A stretch of 64,000 nucleotides of DNA from an uncultured Prevotellaceae bacterium (GTDB taxonomy: Bacteria; Bacteroidota; Bacteroidia; Bacteroidales; Bacteroidaceae): NCBI GenBank assembly GCA_900318995.1, contig ONMR01000001.1:62001-126000 (forward strand), read 5' to 3'. Below the pieces are notes generated by a model. It made no database searches and was not told the DNA's origin. It saw only the letters and a list, made by a program, of their open reading frames with translations. Both the position numbers and the translations under genes were made by a program. The number at the start of each line of letters is the position of its first letter. Position 1 is the first letter of the stretch. Below, in pieces: positions 11,175 to 63,602 of the stretch.

Positions 11175-12575
11175 TCAGTATTTGGCCAGTTTCTTGATCT
11201 TCATGGGAATCTCTGTGTTATCCATCTGGCCGGTGAAAAGTTCTGCACCTGCGCCTATGGCAAACACGGGAACGTAACTGCCTGAATGGCAACCTGCAGC
11301 CCAACTGATTTGGGCACACTCCGTCATTATACGCGCAGCTTCATCGGTAAGGTTGTCTACCTTGAAGTATTCTCCCTCCTTGAGCTCGCCCGGACCCATG
11401 CCGAAAGTCTCGACATAGACGCTTCTGAGACGGTCTGTCTGCTTATCTGTCAGTTTAACTGTATCCCAGAAACCAAAGTTCTCCTTGAGTTCCTGCTGTA
11501 CCTCATCCCATGTCAGGATGTCGCCAATTTCGCGCCCCATATTCTCCAGATGGGCACTGAAAGCTCCCTTGCTCATCTTCTGGTACTGAAGGACCTTAAG
11601 ATTGGTCTTATAGTCTCCAGCAGTGAGTCCAAGTCCACCGGTCTCATGATCGGCTGTGATGACAATCAGGGTCTCTTTCTTATGCTTCAGATAGAAGTTG
11701 TAGGCTACTTTTATGGCTTCATCAAAATCGAGCATTTCCTGAATGTAGGTCCCAGGGTCATTTGCATGGCAGGCCTGATCAATCCTTCCGCCTTCCATCA
11801 TCATGAAGAAACCCTTCTTGGGGTCTTTCATCATGAAATCTATTGCAGCCTCGGTTATCTCTGACAGTTTCAGGTCATCATCCTTGCGGTCTATGGCATA
11901 TGATAGATAATGATCGCTGTTGGGCTCTTTGTCAAAAAGGATGATTTTATCGTTAGATGCGGCCTTCTGTTTGTATTCATCGTATCCATGGACGATTGTG
12001 TATCCGGCTTTTTCGGCCTGTACATAGTTGCCTTCATCGCTGTTGTCATCTGTATACGGAGAGTGGAAATCGGCACCTCCAAAGAACTCGAACCCGGATT
12101 CACTCAGTTGAGTTCCGATCTGATGATACTGGTTGCGGTGAGGACGGTGTCCGTAGAAGCATCCCGGAGTGGCATGGTCAATACATACGGATGTTCCTAT
12201 TGCCACGCGTATGCCCTTGTTGTGAGCCATTTCAGCGATGGATTCCACTCTTGTCTCCTTATCCGGGAGTACTCCCAGATAGTTGTTGTTTGTCTTCTGG
12301 CCACTGGCCAATGCTGTTCCTGCAGCCGAGCTGTCGGTTACGTCGCTGTTGGCTGAATTGGTCACTACAAGTCCTGTATAAGGGAATTGCGTAAAGCAAA
12401 GCGGCTTGAATCCATACTTACCCTCAATGTCCTGAAGATAATACTGGATTCCCATCACCTGATTAGTGCCCATACCGTCACCGATAAAGTAAAAGACATA
12501 CTTGGGACCTTTTTTGGCTGATGCTGACAGAATGAACAGCATCATGGCTAAAAACAGTGTAATTTTCTTTCTCAT
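11175..12575 (-). CDS. Alkaline phosphatase, PhoA superfamily
   Basis: A secreted phosphomonoesterase of 466 residues with a type I signal peptide (residues 1-20, ending ASA-KK). Visible features are the metal site FIGDGMG, the phosphoryl-accepting serine in VTDSSAAGTALASG (Ser82 by alignment with E. coli Ser102), the DHATPG motif and the C-terminal metal ligands ITADHETGGLG. It probably acts in the periplasm to release phosphate from organic esters. It begins 10 bases after the cyclophilin gene and is likely co-transcribed with it. No Pho-box could be recognised. Confidence 0.95.
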   Translation of the reverse strand: MRKKITLFLAMMLFILSASAKKGPKYVFYFIGDGMGTNQVMGIQYYLQDIEGKYGFKPLCFTQFPYTGLVVTNSANSDVTDSSAAGTALASGQKTNNNYLGVLPDKETRVESIAEMAHNKGIRVAIGTSVCIDHATPGCFYGHRPHRNQYHQIGTQLSESGFEFFGGADFHSPYTDDNSDEGNYVQAEKAGYTIVHGYDEYKQKAASNDKIILFDKEPNSDHYLSYAIDRKDDDLKLSEITEAAIDFMMKDPKKGFFMMMEGGRIDQACHANDPGTYIQEMLDFDEAIKVAYNFYLKHKKETLIVITADHETGGLGLTAGDYKTNLKVLQYQKMSKGAFSAHLENMGREIGDILTWDEVQQELKENFGFWDTVKLTDKQTDRLRSVYVETFGMGPGELKEGEYFKVDNLTDEAARIMTECAQISWAAGCHSGSYVPVFAIGAGAELFTGQMDNTEIPMKIKKLAKY

Positions 12576-57057: not shown

Positions 57058-57129
57058 GCCTCTGTAGTTCAATGGATAGAACGGAAGTTTCCTAAACTTT
57101 AAATTTGGGTTCGATTCCCAGCGGGGGTA
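57058..57129 (+). tRNA. tRNA-Arg, anticodon CCT
   Basis: The cloverleaf folds fully: acceptor 57058-57064 with 57122-57128, D-arm GTTC/GAAC, anticodon stem GAAGT/ACTTT with loop TTCCTAA (anticodon 57091-57093, reading AGG), a 4-base variable loop, T-loop TTCGATT, discriminator A. CCA is not encoded. The acceptor stem has three G-U wobbles, one of which (57061-57125) is absent in the displaced original 3' end at 63444-63458. Its 3' end is the attachment site of the integrative element. Confidence 0.95.
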
Positions 57130-57131
57130 CA
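57117..57131 (+). other. attL, 3' end of tRNA-Arg
   Basis: CCCAGCGGGGGTACA covers the T-stem 3' strand, the acceptor 3' strand and two bases beyond. It recurs at 63444-63458 with one change (G at 57125, A at 63452). Confidence 0.85.
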
Positions 57132-57139
57132 TTAGAACG

Positions 57140-57182
57140 ATGCTAATTGACTGATATTCGGTTGATTAGCATTATTCTTTTT
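57140..57182 (+). terminator. Terminator for tRNA-Arg supplied by the element
   Basis: ATGCTAAT (57140-57147) pairs with ATTAGCAT (57165-57172), followed by TATTCTTTTTC. It lies inside the element and replaces the original terminator now at 63453. Confidence 0.7.
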
Positions 57183-57188
57183 CAATTA

Positions 57189-57207
57189 TTGGCGACATAT
57201 TGGCGAC
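57189..57207 (+). other. Left arm-type integrase sites, two TTGGCGAC copies
   Basis: TTGGCGAC at 57189-57196 and 57200-57207, 11 bases apart (one helical turn). Three direct copies and one inverted copy lie at the other end of the element. Confidence 0.65.
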
Positions 57208-57246
57208 TTAATGATTTTTTGCCCCCAAAATGGCCATATCAGAACA

Positions 57247-57282
57247 TAAAAATCACCGCCCAATCTCTCGACCAGACGGTGA
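57247..57282 (-). terminator. Terminator for the leftward operon of the element
   Basis: On the minus strand TCACCG (57277-57282) pairs with CGGTGA (57253-57258), followed by TTTTTATG. It lies just downstream of the 190-aa gene. Confidence 0.65.
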
Positions 57283-57299
57283 CAACTGAATCATTGCTA

Positions 57300-57872
57300 T
57301 CAATGCAATTTTCTATGGAACAAATTTACTAAAACTCTACCTAATGTCCTATCTGCACGTTCTTGATACATTTCCATTTTCATCATCTTCTTTCCGTATG
57401 GTGTCAATATACCTCTATATGTAAACTTTCCCCATTTGCGGTATGCATCTTCATGTCTGTGACATTGTGAATACGTTCTTGCAATCTTGCTCTCCATTTG
57501 TATAGAATACTTTGGATTGGATATAACATGTCTGGGCAAGAATGCGCCACCACTATTCCCATGATAGTTGATTCTGCAATAATATAGTTTGCGGAACTTT
57601 ATGCCGGTATAAGGATTATAGAAAAACCATTGTTCGCCAATGCCCAGATTAGTTGGCTCTCTCCGCAATTCCCATGTGACTTGCATTGTTTCCTCACCCT
57701 CACTCTTGCAAATGATCATGCAAGTCATCTTTGTCAGGTCAACATTGATGGTGAAATCCACGTCATAACCTTGAACGTATGCCGTTCCATGCAACGTTGT
57801 TCTATCAGATAAGAATGCACCCCCATCTTTCAATGTCGAAATCTTCAACCTCAATGTTTCATCCAATATCAT
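57300..57872 (-). CDS. Unknown protein of the integrative element (190 aa)
   Basis: I do not recognise this protein. It has no signal peptide or membrane segment. The first half looks beta-rich (LHGTAYVQGYDVDFTINVDL; CMIICKSEGEETMQVTWELR; QWFFYNPYTGIKFRKLYYCR). The second half is basic (RTYSQCHRHEDAYRKWGKFTYRG; ADRTLGRVLVNLFHRK), which could allow nucleic-acid contact. It is the last gene of the leftward operon, preceded by the TGAACA motif cluster and followed by a terminator. In satellites or integrative elements such a terminal gene is often accessory cargo, but nothing here shows a function. Confidence 0.7.
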   Translation of the reverse strand: MILDETLRLKISTLKDGGAFLSDRTTLHGTAYVQGYDVDFTINVDLTKMTCMIICKSEGEETMQVTWELRREPTNLGIGEQWFFYNPYTGIKFRKLYYCRINYHGNSGGAFLPRHVISNPKYSIQMESKIARTYSQCHRHEDAYRKWGKFTYRGILTPYGKKMMKMEMYQERADRTLGRVLVNLFHRKLH

Positions 57873-57926
57873 AACCTAAATTATTTGAGAACTTATACTA
57901 TTTACTCTGATATTACCCCCGTTCAA

Positions 57927-57994
57927 TGTTCATTCATGAACACATGAACAGATAAACAAATGAACACTTTGAACACCTTGAACATACATGAACA
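57927..57994. repeat. Cluster of TGAACA motifs (iteron-like)
   Basis: Six direct TGAACA hexamers (starts 57937, 57945, 57961, 57970, 57979, 57989) and one inverted TGTTCA (57927) lie within 68 bases, spaced 8-10 or 16 bases. Two more inverted copies occur at 59072 and 59081. They fill most of the non-coding gap between the primase-like gene and the 190-aa gene. Confidence 0.75.
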
Positions 57995-57999
57995 CAACC

Positions 58000-58956
58000 T
58001 TACAATATCACATCATGCCAATCAAATCCGTCATTCCAAACAACACCTTTGGTGATAGTGTCCATTATCAAATCACCGATGTCATCACCCTGATTGATAA
58101 ACTTGCGTTCCATGACATCTGAAATGACCGTTGTGGGGTTGAACTTGCATATATTGTCACATAATACACTCCACTTGTCAAACATTCCGTTATCTGGGAA
58201 TAATACCACGTTGTGACCTTTAAGTGATTTGAACATATCGACATTGATATTACTGCAACCGCCCGTTGCCAAACAGATACCAGATTCAAGAATGCATGAA
58301 AATATCAATGCGGTTTTCTCACTCTCCACAACCATGATGTCATCTTCCGGTTGGCACTTGTTTAGGAGATGTTCACCAAATAGACATTGATTGAGGTTGT
58401 AATCATCAAAATTCAAAAGTGTGTGCGCCCACGTCACTTGATTGAATGGTTTCTTAACTCTCTTTCCGTCATCTGGGTTATACTGCATTATCTTTCCGGC
58501 TCTGATGTGTCCACATCTGTCAACTTGCCAATAGACAACTGCACCACCACCGAAATGATTTGATGTGCCGACATAATAACGGCCCACGATCTCGGCAACC
58601 TTATTCACTCCAAACCATCTGACAAGATATTGAATCAGATTATTTGAATCAGGTGAACACATCGATTGTTTGAGCAATGATGCATCCATATAACTTGTTT
58701 TTGGCTTTGCCTGGACTCGATGTGGGCCTTGTGGCGGTATATAATGATATGGCCTTTGATATGTGTCAAGTTCATTAAGATACTCTTTTGGTGGGCAATG
58801 ATAACCGCATTTGTTCTCACGGTCACATCTACCAACGGCATCATTCAGGATATGGCCATAATCATCCACATACGGAACGAATGTTTTTTGTCCGCATCTG
58901 GGGCATATAATCTTTTTGTGTTCTTGACTTTTTGCAAGATGATATTTGTAATCCAT
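58000..58956 (-). CDS. DUF6371/primase-like protein with zinc finger and Toprim-like region
   Basis: A 318-residue protein. An N-terminal zinc finger (IICPRCGQKTF, then GRCDRENKCGYHCPP) resembles CHC2-type primase fingers. A Toprim-like core follows, with DIMVVESEKTALIFS (catalytic-type Glu), a LATGGCSN loop and VVLFPDNGMFDKW, where the second acidic position of the usual DxD is Gly. This matches the DUF6371 proteins I know from Bacteroidetes mobile elements. It is expected to make primers at the element's origin. Its start codon lies inside a 21-bp sequence repeated exactly 100 bp upstream, on the far side of the iterons. Confidence 0.8.
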   Translation of the reverse strand: MDYKYHLAKSQEHKKIICPRCGQKTFVPYVDDYGHILNDAVGRCDRENKCGYHCPPKEYLNELDTYQRPYHYIPPQGPHRVQAKPKTSYMDASLLKQSMCSPDSNNLIQYLVRWFGVNKVAEIVGRYYVGTSNHFGGGAVVYWQVDRCGHIRAGKIMQYNPDDGKRVKKPFNQVTWAHTLLNFDDYNLNQCLFGEHLLNKCQPEDDIMVVESEKTALIFSCILESGICLATGGCSNINVDMFKSLKGHNVVLFPDNGMFDKWSVLCDNICKFNPTTVISDVMERKFINQGDDIGDLIMDTITKGVVWNDGFDWHDVIL

Positions 58957-59063
58957 GACTATCTTTTTTCAGCCGTTAAATACACGCTATTTCCACGCTA
59001 TTCACACGTAATTCACACGTAATTTCCACGTAATTTCCACGCTATTTGCAATCCATGACTATC
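58943..59063. repeat. 21-bp direct repeats flanking the iteron array
   Basis: The sequences at 58943-58963 and 59043-59063 differ at one base (T/C at 58949/59049), are exactly 100 bp apart and frame the iterons. The left copy contains the primase start region; the right copy keeps the ATG but runs into a stop after four codons (M-D-C-K). Confidence 0.85.
58983..59048. repeat. Six tandem 11-bp iterons, candidate replication origin
   Basis: Six units without gaps: CACGCTATTTC, CACGCTATTCA, CACGTAATTCA, CACGTAATTTC, CACGTAATTTC and CACGCTATTTG. The common core is CACG-(C/T)-(T/A)-ATT. The 11-bp period puts every unit on the same DNA face. The position between the RepA-like ATPase gene and the primase gene is that of an iteron origin. 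Confidence 0.9.
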
Positions 59064-59122
59064 CGTTTTAATGTTCATCATGTTCAATGCGTTTACATCA
59101 TTTGCTCGAACACTTAATCATC

Positions 59123-60130
59123 TTACATATTGGCATACTTGTTCACACTCCCCACCGACAAATCAAGTTGTCTTGCAATCTCACGTTGCGGAACATTCGC
59201 TTTGCGCAATTCCTTGACTTTTTCAATCTTTTCCTCACTTATTCCGTTTGCATTAGAAACAAGATGTTCGGATTCAAAACCGAATCTTTCAAATTGGAAA
59301 TGAACAAAGTTGTCTGGGTTAACCTTGCAGACTCTACACACGGCCACATTATCGGTGTCATAAGTGAACTTTCCGTTGCGACATTTAATCTGTTTGAGAT
59401 AACGGACATCAGAACCTTGACAACTCTTGCCGATGGCAAAACTACTATCACAAAAGTTCATCAGCATCTTTGAACCGCCCAGATGGTTTTGTGTGATTGG
59501 ATCACTTTGGTTTCTTTTGGGGGTGTGGGCCAATAGCAATGCGGACAAATATGATTCACGGCATAACCGATGAATCCATTTCATCAATGGCAATGCATCT
59601 TTCGCGGTTTCCGTTCCGTTCTTTAACCATGTGATGTTATCAATGATTATCACCTTGACACCCGTTTCTTTAATCAGGCCGGATAACTCGCTTTTTAAGT
59701 ATTCCTCAAATCTTACATCATCAGGCATGTCATCAATATTGTCCATCTCGACACGTTCAAACAATTCATCAAAGATGTAGTGATTTGTTCCCTCAATACT
59801 GCATCTTATCTCAAATTGCTTTGAGGTCAACTCAAAATCAAAATATAAGACTCTTTGTTTCTCTGCATCCATCTGGAATCCGGCTATTGGTGTTCCTCTA
59901 CTGATGGAATCTGCTATCTGAACCGCGAGAATGGATTTGCCAGCATTGGTATCACTGAACAATATACACACCTCACCCTCACACCATAAGTCACCAAACA
60001 GATGTTTTGGCATGGGTTGATTTTTCGCGTCATTCAACCATTGATTGGCTTTTTTGACCGTAAACAACCCATTGGTTTTGGGTTCATCAATGGGGTTGTC
60101 TATTATGCTGAAATCTGGGTTTGTTTCCAT
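59123..60130 (-). CDS. RepA-like AAA ATPase (DnaB/RecA fold) with C-terminal HTH
   Basis: A 335-residue P-loop ATPase of the RepA/AAA_25 type: Walker A in CILFSDTNAGKSILAVQIAD (about residues 50-72), Walker B in GVKVIIIDNITWL, and a sensor-like LSALLLAHTPKR. RSF1010 RepA is a hexameric replicative helicase of this fold. The C terminus adds an HTH (VPQREIARQLDLSVGSVNKYANM), which could bind the nearby iterons. It lies 35 bases after the excisionase-like gene, in one operon, and is followed by the iterons. Confidence 0.85.
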   Translation of the reverse strand: METNPDFSIIDNPIDEPKTNGLFTVKKANQWLNDAKNQPMPKHLFGDLWCEGEVCILFSDTNAGKSILAVQIADSISRGTPIAGFQMDAEKQRVLYFDFELTSKQFEIRCSIEGTNHYIFDELFERVEMDNIDDMPDDVRFEEYLKSELSGLIKETGVKVIIIDNITWLKNGTETAKDALPLMKWIHRLCRESYLSALLLAHTPKRNQSDPITQNHLGGSKMLMNFCDSSFAIGKSCQGSDVRYLKQIKCRNGKFTYDTDNVAVCRVCKVNPDNFVHFQFERFGFESEHLVSNANGISEEKIEKVKELRKANVPQREIARQLDLSVGSVNKYANM

Positions 60131-60165
60131 AATAATTGCATCGAATAATGATTCATTCCTGGTAA

Positions 60166-60468
60166 TTACTTATTCTCCAAAATGCTTTGAATGTCAGTTG
60201 ACTTGTATCGTTGCTGACCGCCCACAACAATGGGAACGAGATATCCCGTCTTTTTCCATCTCCACAATGTTGATGATGTGATGCTTAACATCTTCATCAC
60301 CTTATCAGATGTCAAATAGGTCACGTTCTTGTTGTCTGCAATGGTCTGTTCCATTTCCCTTGCACATTCAGCAACAAGCATTTCATTTGCAGTCACCAAA
60401 TCCTTTGCGGAGATGGAGATGATTACGTTTGGGCATTCCTTTGCCAATTCAATCAAATTAGTTGTCAT
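60166..60468 (-). CDS. Excisionase-like helix-turn-helix protein
   Basis: A 100-residue protein from the chosen ATG (MTTNLIELAKECPNVIISIS) ending with a MerR/excisionase-type HTH (LTSDKVMKMLSITSSTLWRWKKTGYLVPIVVGGQQRYKSTDI). Proteins of this type in Bacteroidetes elements direct excision or regulate the replication operon. The frame is open further upstream, with ATGs at 60567, 60564 and 60561 just downstream of a perfect -7 element, so a 131-133-residue form is possible. It is the first gene of the replication operon and has a palindromic operator-like site upstream. Confidence 0.8.
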   Translation of the reverse strand: MTTNLIELAKECPNVIISISAKDLVTANEMLVAECAREMEQTIADNKNVTYLTSDKVMKMLSITSSTLWRWKKTGYLVPIVVGGQQRYKSTDIQSILENK

Positions 60469-60575
60469 AATCTTTTGTTTTATTGGTTCGCCCCTCATGG
60501 CATCCGTCAATGCCATTGTTTCGGCTATGGGAAATCTGATGCCGTTGACGGTCACTGACATCATCATGTCCGATG

Positions 60576-60640
60576 CAAAACTATAATCACATATAGCAAA
60601 CAAAAATGGGTTAACCCATGTCAACCCAACACCACAACCC
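60576..60640 (-). promoter_or_regulatory. Promoter and palindromic operator of the replication operon
   Basis: On the minus strand a perfect -7 element TAGTTTTG (60576-60583) has TTTG upstream (60601-60604, gap 17). Immediately upstream lie the perfect 14-bp palindrome ATGGGTTAACCCAT (60606-60619) and two GGGTTG half sites (60622-60627, 60635-60640). This is the layout of a repressor or activator binding site. Confidence 0.6.
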
Positions 60641-60682
60641 ATTGCACCATCTATAATTGTCTATCAGTCATCATAATGTTGC

Positions 60683-60721
60683 ATAAAAAAAGCGGAGATT
60701 CTGTTAAAAATACTCCGCTTT
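60683..60721 (-). terminator. Terminator after the 268-aa gene
   Basis: On the minus strand AAAGCGGAG (60713-60721) pairs perfectly with CTCCGCTTT (60689-60697), loop of 15, followed by TTTTATGC. It separates the integrase-side operon from the replication operon. Confidence 0.85.
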
Positions 60722-60743
60722 CATCTGATTGATTCAGTAATCA

Positions 60744-61550
60744 TCAATGGGATGTGGTTGATGTATCACACAAATCTTTATTTGTCAGGTAATTCCCATC
60801 AGCACTATATCTGAATATCCCGTTTACACTTACCCAATCCCATTTATTGCCCCATTTCCTTTCAATGATAGGTTTGTATTGTTTTTCTTGTCCTTTAATG
60901 GGTATTCCGCGCAACCATCTGGACAAATCTGCTTGACTACCAGACCAAATCAAATCATCATCAATGAGTCTTGCTTGATATCTCATATAAGAGAAAGACG
61001 GATGTTTTTTAATCTTATCAATCATCGTCTTTATCTCTCTTGACTTATGTTTGGTCTTTTTCACCGCCAGAACACTATCGGCCCACACCTCATATCCAAC
61101 ATCGATGTTATCAGGAATCATCTTGTTGTTATCTCGATATTCTTTAACCAGCTCTTTGCATACATCAGGATAATATTGATATATCCATTTTAGCCATGAT
61201 AATGCCATTGCCAATGGTTTTCGAATCCAACTGCATTCCGATGGATTTGAATAATATGGGTCATTAGGGTTAGGTCTATGGGTCAGATGTATCAAATCAA
61301 GCAATGAACGTATGAAATCAAAATCATATGTTGCCAATGGTATTCCTTTGAACTTGCAATCACGGAGATAACTTTGATAATTGATATCATTCTCTTGAAA
61401 CAACCCATTGTTGCGCCCCCAATCCCCACATAATTTGTTGCATTGCTCATGCCATATGGCTGATCCAAATGGTATTCTACTTGAATAATTGGAAAGACTC
61501 AATCCGATATAAGATTGAATCTCTTTGATAATCTCTTTGTATGGGAACAT
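60744..61550 (-). CDS. Unknown protein of the integrative element (268 aa)
   Basis: I do not recognise this protein. It is soluble, aromatic-rich and mostly helical, with no signal peptide. Notable stretches are CSWIRKPLAMALSWLKWIYQ, a basic patch KKTKHKSREIKTMIDKIKKHP, and a C-terminal part with SQADLSRWLRGIPIKG and ERKWGNKWDWVSVNGIF. The SQADLSRWLRG segment, with WSG before it, could be a small HTH. It follows the 84-aa gene by 17 bases and ends before a strong terminator, so it belongs to the integrase-side operon. Confidence 0.7.
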   Translation of the reverse strand: MFPYKEIIKEIQSYIGLSLSNYSSRIPFGSAIWHEQCNKLCGDWGRNNGLFQENDINYQSYLRDCKFKGIPLATYDFDFIRSLLDLIHLTHRPNPNDPYYSNPSECSWIRKPLAMALSWLKWIYQYYPDVCKELVKEYRDNNKMIPDNIDVGYEVWADSVLAVKKTKHKSREIKTMIDKIKKHPSFSYMRYQARLIDDDLIWSGSQADLSRWLRGIPIKGQEKQYKPIIERKWGNKWDWVSVNGIFRYSADGNYLTNKDLCDTSTTSH

Positions 61551-61567
61551 ATTGCCGTTGTTATTGG

Positions 61568-61822
61568 TTACACCATCACCTCATTGCCTTGAATGTTCTT
61601 GATGTTGGATAGGTTATCCATAACATTTGCAAAGAGCCGTTCTCTAAACATACCCATCAGTTCATTGAACTTTGTAGTCATCGGTTCAATCTCATTGTCA
61701 AGCATTAACGGGTCTACCGTTGCCGATACTCCATCAACAAAGCATTCATAATCCTTTGTCAAATCTACCATTGCATTCAACACAACTTGTGATTCCTTGC
61801 TTACCTTAAATGTTCTTTCCAT
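61568..61822 (-). CDS. Small unknown protein of the integrative element (84 aa)
   Basis: An 84-residue acidic protein (MERTFKVSKESQVVLNAMVDL) with predicted helices and no cysteine motif beyond one Cys. It is not recognised. It starts 22 bases after the integrase stop codon and precedes the 268-aa gene on the same strand, suggesting co-transcription. It could be a small regulatory or recombination-directionality factor; nothing in the sequence proves that. Confidence 0.6.
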   Translation of the reverse strand: MERTFKVSKESQVVLNAMVDLTKDYECFVDGVSATVDPLMLDNEIEPMTTKFNELMGMFRERLFANVMDNLSNIKNIQGNEVMV

Positions 61823-61844
61823 AATCGTTCTATTTTGTTTATAA

Positions 61845-63215
61845 TCATTTATCCAATAGTCTTACCAGCTCACGGCCCATGTCATCATCAATGTCACGAT
61901 AACGGGCAAATGCTCTTGAACCCTCTGCATGGCCGGAGAACTTGCCAATCAAATTGGGGTCTTTCACTTGCTTGTATAGGTTACCGCAAAATGTACGTCT
62001 TGCAAGATGTGAACTTGCAACCTCATTAAGAGGTCGCCACACTTGTTCTCTTGTCAGTGAATCCAACACCAGAACCTTGCGAGTCAGTCCGGCAATGGCA
62101 AACATCTTTTTGATTGCTTGATTGTAATTCTGGTCAGATATGAACGGCAATAGTTTGTTGTCTGGAATGTTTGCATATCTATTTACAATCTCTTTGGCCG
62201 TTTCATTAAGAGGAACTCTCACAATCTTGCCGTTTGCGTTCAATGTCTTGACGGGTATATATTCAACCATGTCGCCCACAACACTTTGTTTTGTCAGTCT
62301 TGATAGGTCTGACACACGGCATCCAATCAGGCATTGGAAAACGAATATATCTCTTTGTACGGCAAGACTCGGATTGTCAGTGAGGTCAGTATTATAGAGC
62401 TGGTTTCGTTCCTCATTGGTGATGTAGTATGGTGTTCCGTAAATGCTTGTTCCTATCTCATATCCATTAAATGGATCATTGGTTGTGAAACCTCTGTCAA
62501 TGGCCCAATTTGTGAATGCTCTTAATCTTTTCATGATGTCGATAATTGCATTCTCACCTCTGGGTTGCGGTTCTCTACTTTCCGGCACGGAAAGAAAAGC
62601 ATTCTTATACCTTGCATTGGCAAACGTCATGTTGCCATCAGAGTCATGGCCGATAAGGTTGTGTTCATCAGATAAGAAATCGGAGAAATCACGCAACACA
62701 TCTGGACTGATGGATTCAAAGGTCAAATCCAATCCTTTGTATATGTCAAATCTTTGAAACACCCTCAATGTGGCTCTTGTTGTGGCTTTGCGGTGTTCCG
62801 ACATCTTATGTGTTGTTATATACTGATTGTATCTATCAAAATAACCATTGCTTGTGATTGTTCCCTGATTGGGAAAGTTGTATGATGTCATCAGGTTAAC
62901 AAGCCAATCTTTGGGTAATTCGGTTTTGCCAGCACCAGACGCAATGAATGATTGACTTATCAGTTCTTTGATGTCATTGATTCTCTTGTTCTGTTCTGTC
63001 AGTTCTGAAATAACCCTCTTTTGCTCTGCATTCATCAATCGAGTTTTGGGGATGTTATTACACCCATGCTCGTTGTTCCAATAGTCAGGTGAAACAAAGA
63101 TGTTTGTTCTTGCTCTTTGGTTGATGTGATGACCATGAAAGAACCTCACCATCACCTCACTTTTGCCGGATATCTTGTCGGTTTTACTTGACAATGATAA
63201 TTGAATGGTCGCCAT
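61845..63215 (-). CDS. Tyrosine-type site-specific recombinase (integrase)
   Basis: A 456-residue phage-type integrase of the Bacteroidetes kind. It has an N-terminal arm-binding region, a SAM-like core-binding domain (about 110-220) and a catalytic domain with Arg in LIGCRVSDLSRLT, Lys in VKTLNANGKIVRVPL, His-x-x-Arg in SSHLARRTFCGNL, His in GKFSGHAEGSRAF and the nucleophile Tyr in ARYRDIDDD. It should integrate and excise the element at the tRNA-Arg 3' end. Its gene is next to attR, and its promoter overlaps TTGGCGAC repeats, so it may control its own expression. Confidence 0.95.
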   Translation of the reverse strand: MATIQLSLSSKTDKISGKSEVMVRFFHGHHINQRARTNIFVSPDYWNNEHGCNNIPKTRLMNAEQKRVISELTEQNKRINDIKELISQSFIASGAGKTELPKDWLVNLMTSYNFPNQGTITSNGYFDRYNQYITTHKMSEHRKATTRATLRVFQRFDIYKGLDLTFESISPDVLRDFSDFLSDEHNLIGHDSDGNMTFANARYKNAFLSVPESREPQPRGENAIIDIMKRLRAFTNWAIDRGFTTNDPFNGYEIGTSIYGTPYYITNEERNQLYNTDLTDNPSLAVQRDIFVFQCLIGCRVSDLSRLTKQSVVGDMVEYIPVKTLNANGKIVRVPLNETAKEIVNRYANIPDNKLLPFISDQNYNQAIKKMFAIAGLTRKVLVLDSLTREQVWRPLNEVASSHLARRTFCGNLYKQVKDPNLIGKFSGHAEGSRAFARYRDIDDDMGRELVRLLDK

Positions 63216-63245
63216 TGCTTTGATATAAATAATGATTCAGTGCAT

Positions 63246-63253
63246 CAAAGATA
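63246..63253 (-). promoter_or_regulatory. -7 promoter element of the integrase gene
   Basis: Minus-strand TATCTTTG, a perfect TAnnTTTG, 30 bases before the integrase start codon. The nearest TTGGCGAC copy (63262-63269) lies within its -33 spacer. Confidence 0.55.
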
Positions 63254-63261
63254 ATACGTTT

Positions 63262-63300
63262 TTGGCGACTTTGGTTATATTTTGGCGACTTTTTGGCGAC
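63262..63300 (+). other. Right arm-type integrase sites, three TTGGCGAC copies
   Basis: TTGGCGAC at 63262-63269, 63282-63289 and 63293-63300, spaced 20 and 11 bases, in the same orientation as the two left copies. An inverted copy GTCGCCAA is at 63420-63427, 17 bases from attR. Confidence 0.65.
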
Positions 63301-63443
63301 TTACATGAAATTATTTGAAAACGGATGCAATCTTTTGAAATGGCAAACAAGTAATTCAAGATATTGCAAATCAAATGTTTTACGTCACAATAGAACTATT
63401 ATCCAACGAATTGCGAAAAGTCGCCAATTTCATACTTTATACC

Positions 63444-63458
63444 CCCAGCGGAGGTACA
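63444..63458 (+). other. attR, displaced original 3' end of tRNA-Arg
   Basis: CCCAGCGGAGGTACA matches the tRNA 3' end except for A at 63452. That A would make a Watson-Crick A-U pair with tRNA base 57061, where the present tRNA has a G-U wobble. It is therefore probably the ancestral end. Confidence 0.8.
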
Positions 63459-63506
63459 AATATAGGCGGCATCAAGCCGCCTATATTTGTACCTGGACCT
63501 TTTTTT
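63453..63506 (+). terminator. Perfect 18-bp palindrome with T-tract, displaced tRNA-Arg terminator
   Basis: The left arm 63453-63470 pairs perfectly with 63476-63493 (loop ATCAA), then TGGACCTTTTTTT. The left arm includes the last bases of the tRNA (GGTACA), so before integration this would have been the terminator directly attached to the tRNA. No gene now reads into it from the left. Confidence 0.8.
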
Positions 63507-63507
63507 A

Positions 63508-63602
63508 ATTTGCTTCGCAAATGGCAGTCCTCCGGACTGACGGCTTCGCCGTTTTTATCAGATTTTATTAGAACCCAAATTTAAAGTTCAGGAAACTCCT
63601 GA
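63508..63602. repeat. Series of four mini-hairpins with 3-base loops
   Basis: Stems of 5-6 bp with loops of three bases: ATTTGC-TTC-GCAAAT (63508-63522), CAGTCC-TCC-GGACTG (63525-63539), ACGGC-TTC-GCCGT (63540-63552, then TTTTT) and TCAGGA-AAC-TCCTGA (63588-63602). No coding explanation was found in this gap between attR and the GlsB gene. Confidence 0.7.
63571..63599 (-). pseudogene. Inverted 29-nt partial copy of tRNA-Arg(CCT)
   Basis: The minus strand matches tRNA bases 57084-57112 (anticodon arm through the start of the T-loop) at 27 of 29 positions. The acceptor and D-arm parts are missing. The plus strand here would be antisense to the tRNA. Confidence 0.75.

Follow-up and report, generated by a model that had tools for sequence, protein, structure and literature searches.

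Several described systems resemble parts of the element reported here. Tn4555, a mobilisable transposon of Bacteroides that carries cfxA, is reported to be moved by conjugation (PMC5704250). Integrative elements that bring only an origin of transfer (oriT) to that process are also recognised, and these oriT-only elements (iOriT) offer the best conjugative parallel (PMC11389934). Among phage satellites, the minimal PICMIs of Vibrionaceae are described as elements that depend on phage particles and that excise and replicate by means of three core proteins, and terminase or capsid-hijack genes are not required of them (PMC10803314). PLEs are reported to carry tmp and tac genes and to build chimeric tails with their own tape-measure protein, and putative tmp genes are also reported for PLE-like elements and cf-PICIs (PMC12987554). 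Here we describe a 6.3-kb element at positions 57117-63458 of a 64,000-nucleotide stretch of contig ONMR01000001.1 (assembly GCA_900318995.1, positions 62,001 to 126,000), from an uncultured Prevotellaceae bacterium; the whole 64-kb stretch is called the window below, and G and L numbers are our handles for genomes and loci. We put at about one in two the probability that this element belongs, as a minimal form, to a phage-satellite-like lineage of Bacteroidales not described before.

Like a satellite, the element is integrated, has genes for excision and replication, and lacks a full set of virion genes. It shares with PICMIs, as they are described, a reduced gene content and the absence of a capsid-remodelling gene, a likeness of general form and not of compared genes. 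It differs in target (tRNA-Arg, whereas PICMIs sit by fis) and in host phylum, and for PICMIs a helper has been shown. Among the open-licence papers listed, none announces phage satellites of Bacteroides or Bacteroidales in its title or the start of its abstract.

An insertion at the 3′ end of tRNA-Arg

The element lies at the 3′ end of a tRNA-Arg(CCT) gene (57058..57130, plus strand; ARAGORN), whose role as integration target is indicated by empty sites in the same genus. Its ends are 15-base direct repeats on the plus strand, attL (CCCAGCGGGGGTACA, 57117..57131) and attR (CCCAGCGGAGGTACA, 63444..63458), which differ by one mismatch; allowing up to one mismatch, a scan of both strands found only these two copies of the core in 64 kb. 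When the flanks are joined without the block, they match genome G026 (L142) at 87% over 805 bp, and the match spans the junction, giving an empty site. Seven of thirty-six other genomes of the genus (G009, G026, G013, G031, G022, G005, and G020) have an empty-site match that continues for at least 44 bases beyond the junction. Because same-genus genomes show empty sites, the block is an insertion. An earlier sequence-only reading, made from the letters without database searches, had described a 6.3-kb one-strand block between 15-base direct repeats, and both the unique cores and the empty sites bear it out. The G026 core equals the right-hand copy, so the variant base of the left-hand core was probably brought by the element. 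The attL copy that the element carries restores the 3′ end of the tRNA gene. GC content is 39% in the block and 53% in the left flank.

Sites suited to a tyrosine integrase lie beside both cores. TTGGCGAC occurs seven times in the window, and motif search places six of these next to the cores: two on the plus strand near attL (57189 and 57200; 57189..57207), three on the plus strand at the other end (63262, 63282, and 63293; 63262..63300), and one inverted, on the minus strand, adjoining attR (63420; 63420..63427). Shuffles of 8 kb, searched on both strands as a control for chance, gave a mean of 0.23 copies and a maximum of 3. The arrangement at both ends is arm-like and matches the layout of arm-type sites for such an integrase.

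The insertion also separates the tRNA gene from what follows it. In the empty site of G026, tRNA-Arg is contiguous with a terminator-like hairpin, while in the window a perfect 19-bp terminator hairpin (63452..63494, plus strand), found in a hairpin scan and by comparison with G026, is placed 6.3 kb off. Past attR, positions 63571-63597 hold a 27-nt inverted piece of the same tRNA-Arg (96%), and some genomes of the genus, among them G006, G008, and G021, have matches to this stretch shortly after the tRNA. In G006 (L140, 3250-14830), other DNA fills 11.6 kb between the same tRNA-Arg and the distal flank; it includes an open reading frame (ORF) of 2280 aa, and BLAST found no integrase-like ORF in it.

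Gene content and the replication module

Seven minus-strand genes fill the block, with intergenic gaps of 17-166 bp: the integrase, p84, p268, a helix-turn-helix (HTH) regulator, an AAA_25 ATPase, a DUF6371/PG0870 protein, and p190. The integrase (61845..63215) has Phage_int_SAM_5 and Phage_integrase domains (PF13102 and PF00589), and its place among tyrosine integrases is also seen in our tree. The HTH_17/excisionase-like regulator (60166..60642) probably starts downstream of a hairpin at 60607-60628 and is 43-45% identical to the HTH proteins of L119 and L146; an HTH_17 match below cut-off and similarity to phrog_66 suggest its excisionase role. The RepA/DnaB-like ATPase (59123..60130; PF13481, 7e-20), which also has a weak C-terminal HTH match, is 52% identical to that of a p190 element in G635 (L110). 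Next comes the DUF6371/PG0870 Zn-ribbon protein (58000..58956; PF19898, 3e-53; PF21957, 1e-20; NF040506, 1e-17), which may be called primase-like by its Zn ribbon and position only. The integrase, HTH, RepA-like ATPase, and primase-like protein named in the sequence-only reading are thus confirmed as families, HTH_17 below its cut-off, and the three proteins it could not place are still without one.

These three are p84 (61568..61822), p268 (60744..61550), and p190 (57300..57872), all on the minus strand. Scans against Pfam, NCBIfam, and PHROG gave nothing of note for any of them, p190 having a single NCBIfam match, weak and far below cut-off, and PADLOC gave no family that would mark them as defence cargo. 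p268 is an orphan in a variable slot between the integrase and HTH genes; no relative was found in 100 other genomes, in viral contigs (searched with short exact patterns), or among 50,697 phage records. What relatives carry in this slot is only 13-20% identical to it, and we claim no relation; when eight of these slot neighbours were scanned, two matched DUF6043 and one ORF6N. A single-sequence model of p268 was unusable (pLDDT 41). p190, with 190 amino acids, belongs to a rare family with the motif WFF..P.TG..FRKLYY and holds the slot of mob in Tn4555-like relatives.

None of the seven proteins matched a relaxase, capsid, portal, terminase, or capsid-hijack family in Pfam, NCBIfam, or PHROG. 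The Tn4555-type Mob protein itself gets no relaxase match in Pfam, and we therefore used 12 Mob reference proteins as well; these too revealed no relaxase in the element. The earlier statement that the block has no transfer genes therefore holds for Pfam, NCBIfam, and these references. A relaxase in one of the unplaced proteins, which on the terms of the sequence-only reading would have told against it, did not turn up by profile search, a weaker test than assumed because Pfam misses the Tn4555-type Mob too.

Both repeat clusters of the earlier reading are present. Between the AAA and DUF6371 genes, a repeat search found six iterons, CACG[CT][TA]ATT, in exact 11-bp steps (58983..59046, plus strand); the region matches itself at 11 bp in 53 of 66 positions, against a mean of 29.6 and a maximum of 34 in 200 shuffles, and is a putative replication origin. 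Just upstream of p190 lies a cluster of six TGAACA repeats (57937..57994, plus strand), found by repeat search without a shuffle control, which could be an operator, a second origin, or an oriT. Six nick motifs sought as a sign of oriT are all absent; oriTs of other types are beyond such a search. An inverted repeat followed by a T run (60690..60721, minus strand), seen by eye and absent from the hairpin scan list, is the likely terminator of an int-p84-p268 unit, so that HTH-AAA-DUF6371-p190 probably form a transcription unit of their own.

The order of excisionase, AAA ATPase, and DUF6371 is that of Tn4555. In record CP103138 (L032), which carries cfxA, the integrase is followed by excisionase, AAA, DUF6371, and a hypothetical/mobilisation protein, as printed for Tn4555, and the AAA and DUF6371 proteins of the window element are 40% and 36% identical to those of this locus. 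L032 differs in its mobilisation protein after DUF6371, its distant integrase (22%), and its resistance gene, whereas the window element has p190 in the mob slot and a tRNA 3′ end as target. Other DUF6371 elements bear MobV (L085, L087, and L094). L085 has the same order of integrase, further gene, HTH, ATPase, and DUF6371; this group differs from the window element in its MobV-like relaxases, and several related loci have twin integrases (L086-L089). Such tandem integrases, from two clades of one family, are seen in many mob-bearing relatives (L086-L089, L147, L149, L155, and L159).

DUF6371 relatives occur in 77 of 251 genomes of the family, its own included, in 11 plasmid-collection records (nine from Bacteroides), and in 6 phage-collection records, five of which are unannotated fragments of 6-13 kb. 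Presence in the phage collection is no proof of packaging, because L033 and L034 are found there and carry Mob-like genes. Among nineteen loci without p190 that have sequence past DUF6371, thirteen (L032-L034, L036-L038, L085, L087-L089, L094, L116, and L117) have a Mob-like gene no more than three genes beyond it. The other six do not (L035, which ends soon after, L090, L093, L095, L115, and L145).

Relatives without a detected relaxase

Of 393 genomes of the order, 9 have p190 according to a seven-sequence profile: the window's own genome, four more that had supplied seed sequences, and four new ones. The family is also present in two plasmid-collection records, and species genomes, when scanned, yielded two loci, from Bacteroides acidifaciens and B. 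faecis. p190 follows DUF6371, directly or with one small gene between, in G402, G413, and G635, with a stop-broken copy in G693, and the full AAA-DUF6371-p190 order recurs in G635. In B. finegoldii, p190 comes after a DnaB helicase. In G097 (L114, 12893-15076), a p190 relative adjoins tRNA-Met and a G2P-type initiator (PF05144), which belongs to another type of replication.

Neither PF03432 nor PF01076 relaxases were found on the 10 other p190 contigs or records checked, while in the positive controls G310 and G046 Mob_Pre stands directly after DUF6371. The L118 and L119 contigs were not matched to those 10; L119 has no gene like the Mob references, and L118, compared with the earlier references only, has none that is Mob-like. 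Genome-wide, both relaxase families are absent from G402, G413, G473, G693, G097, and G378, as well as from the window's own genome, a draft that is 87% complete; G635 and G485 have PF03432 on contigs other than that of p190. The G413 element is 9.0 kb long, is bounded by 47-bp repeats at tRNA-Met, and contains an integrase, a 680-aa protein, the ATPase, DUF6371, p190, and small ORFs, with no gene like the Mob references found. The window element fits this group, defined in our analysis as p190 beside a replication module with no relaxase found. A model of p190 from three sequences has a pLDDT of 52.5 and no Foldseek match in PDB at E 0.001, and we claim no fold for it.

The integrase has matches at 1e-40 in 36 of 301 genomes of the family, its own included, and part of these were fetched at length for a tree. 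In a tree of 43 rows, the window's integrase falls on a side of fourteen rows with support of 100/100, where none of the fourteen rows comes from a locus labelled mob and two come from loci labelled tape-measure. The other side has twenty-nine rows, twenty-two mob and seven without, and those seven rows all come from five loci (L086, L091, L100, L143, and L161) that end at contig ends. Contig ends also cut four loci on the window's side (L092, L151, L152, and L156), and seven members there are complete and tRNA-bounded (L090, L093, L099, L145, L146, L148, and L157). Labels were given per fetched locus and not per element, by BLAST against 12 Mob, 2 tape-measure, and the earlier reference proteins; L160 is thus labelled 'none' although PHROG gives it a tape-measure gene. 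Seven long or distant rows had been dropped from this tree (L115, L049, L050, L119, L160, and the second integrases of L153 and L158).

Among the integrase relatives, elements flanked by direct repeats lie at tRNA genes for Arg-TCT, Arg-CCG, Arg-CCT, Leu-TAA, Leu-CAA, Leu-TAG, Phe, and Lys. The bounds are exact repeats of 13-47 nt, and those of 13-15 nt (L050, L160, and L146) could be chance. Two bounded elements, L096 and L144, have a Tn4555-type mob. Eleven bounded elements at tRNA genes, 7.8-18.7 kb long, have no Mob-like gene: eight from the integrase relatives, and L050, L083, and L119 from the p190 set. One element with no relaxase detected, L145, is in tRNA-Arg(CCT) like that of the window and carries a PD-T4-6-like kinase (11658-12446).

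Four of these eleven elements have a tape-measure gene of 1365-1679 aa, identified by PHROG in L119, L148, and L160 and by BLAST to L119 in L157. All four are 12-19 kb long, and the tape-measure gene is the sole virion gene seen in them; a small gene precedes it in L119, L148, and L157 (phrog_5377 in L119 and L157). The L119 protein matches 156 phage records, including phages of Porphyromonas, Parabacteroides, and Bacteroides; among the matches listed, at most about half its length is covered, at roughly 28-39%. L049 and L118, from two Bacteroides species, have 3.8 kb including p190 in common at 94% identity, and they match again on both flanks of a stretch of about 5.2 kb that is present in L049 only (L049 11146-16394 against L118 5486-5800) and contains a 1325-aa tape-measure gene, identified by PHROG. 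On this comparison the tape-measure gene is an optional cassette, and since the tail gene is optional, its absence from the window element does not by itself exclude membership in the class. The likeness to PLEs and cf-PICIs belongs only to these relatives (L119, L148, L157, L160, and L049), in which a tape-measure gene was found and a capsid gene was not; the window element differs in having no tape-measure gene, the host phylum is another, and the likeness is one of gene content and not of compared integrases.

We scanned 111 unassigned ORFs of the eleven elements, a set restricted to ORFs of at least 85 aa and without five of extreme length. Four RusA proteins, four phage-type repressors, two DnaC-like loaders, a Fic protein, putAbiC, and a kinase are among them, as are a resolvase and a transposase. 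Relaxase, terminase, portal, and capsid are not among the families listed for them (25 of 33 in Pfam and 25 of 73 in PHROG). A search of the genus for terminase (phrog_2) gave weak matches of 19-30 bits, in most cases a single one per genome, in 36 of the 37; these are uninformative because they probably come from a housekeeping ATPase.

How the element may move

The sequence-only reading had offered two options, a phage satellite that borrows capsids or an autonomously replicating integrative element mobilised by another route. What stands is an integrative element with a replication module and no detectable relaxase; as to the choice, the grouping in the integrase tree, p190 seen only at loci with no relaxase detected, and the sister elements with tape-measure genes tilt toward the satellite side, short of proof. 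The element can probably excise and copy itself. In the mechanism we propose, the integrase and HTH protein would excise a circle, which the AAA and DUF6371 proteins would replicate from the iterons; p190 would assist in replication or packaging, perhaps by binding single-stranded DNA. A tailed helper phage would then package the amplified DNA and deliver it to a new cell, the least certain step, and the DNA would re-insert in tRNA-Arg. p84 and p268, in the variable slot by the integrase, are candidates for a regulator or anti-phage cargo. With a little less confidence than even odds would express, we suggest that Bacteroidales carry an undescribed tRNA-targeting satellite lineage with a shared replication core, an optional lone tape-measure tail cassette, and maybe PLE-like chimeric tails; the window element would be its stripped seven-gene form, and p190 would mark one branch.

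A number of results weigh against a satellite. No tape-measure, tail, packaging, or capsid-modifying gene was found in the window element, and no helper, packaging signal (cos/pac), particle DNA, or circle was seen in the sequences analysed. Searches of viral contigs with short exact patterns gave no relative of DUF6371 or, from its alignment, of p190, which is also missing from the 50,697 phage records, and only one viral contig (L048) has a relative of the integrase. When all 50 rows are kept in the integrase tree, the window's side still has no mob row, with support of only 80/85, and a topology with the window just outside the thirteen others is not rejected (p 0.389). The best pairwise identity of the window's integrase, 44%, is to L096 with its Tn4555-type mob gene, and the AAA and DUF6371 proteins also resemble those of Tn4555. 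The family tallies for the 111 ORFs leave 8 of 33 Pfam and 48 of 73 PHROG families unlisted. Last, a Mob-like gene is present at a locus (L158) of G027, in the same genus, which makes conjugative helpers in the genus possible.

The main rival, which we think unlikely, is an oriT-only integrative mobilisable element (iOriT) that excises and replicates itself and obtains relaxase and mating pore in trans from a conjugative element. The replication module that follows Tn4555's, the TGAACA cluster by p190 as a possible oriT, and the L158 locus would all suit it. It has to contend with the lack of both relaxase families in the element's own genome, the absence of the six nick motifs, and an integrase that groups with those of non-mob elements; PF19044 TraG was found in 0 of 37 genomes of the genus. 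These negatives are softened by the 87% completeness of the draft and by the Bacteroides control genomes, which gave no match either.

We regard as improbable that this is a decayed Tn4555/NBU-like element that has lost mob and is now inherited vertically or moves rarely. Its gene order matches that of relatives with mob, p190 taking the place of that gene, but all seven frames are open, the att cores are intact, and arm-like sites and iterons are present; moreover, p190 stands after DUF6371 in genomes from further families of the order too and is therefore not a single accident. Still less probable is another route, be it transduction (general or lateral), vesicles, or competence, in which case replication would serve stability alone. 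Small size suits any carrier, and lateral transduction is reported in gut Bacteroides (PMC12946183), but such a route leaves unexplained the clustering of non-mob elements, tape-measure carriers among them, in the integrase tree. It is very improbable that p190, or p268, is an unrecognised relaxase in a canonical mobilisable element: the mob slot after DUF6371 and two invariant tyrosines would fit, but p190 has no invariant histidine, shows no similarity to the 12 Mob references, yields only a low-confidence model that matches nothing in PDB at E 0.001, and is found next to a DnaB module and a G2P-type initiator as well, and we judged p268 likewise from Pfam, NCBIfam, and the Mob references.

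If such satellites exist in Bacteroidales, some of the 'cryptic island' DNA and anti-phage cargo of this dominant gut order would move in phage particles and not by conjugation, and tail remodelling, through the lone tape-measure cassette, would no longer be confined to PLE and cf-PICI.

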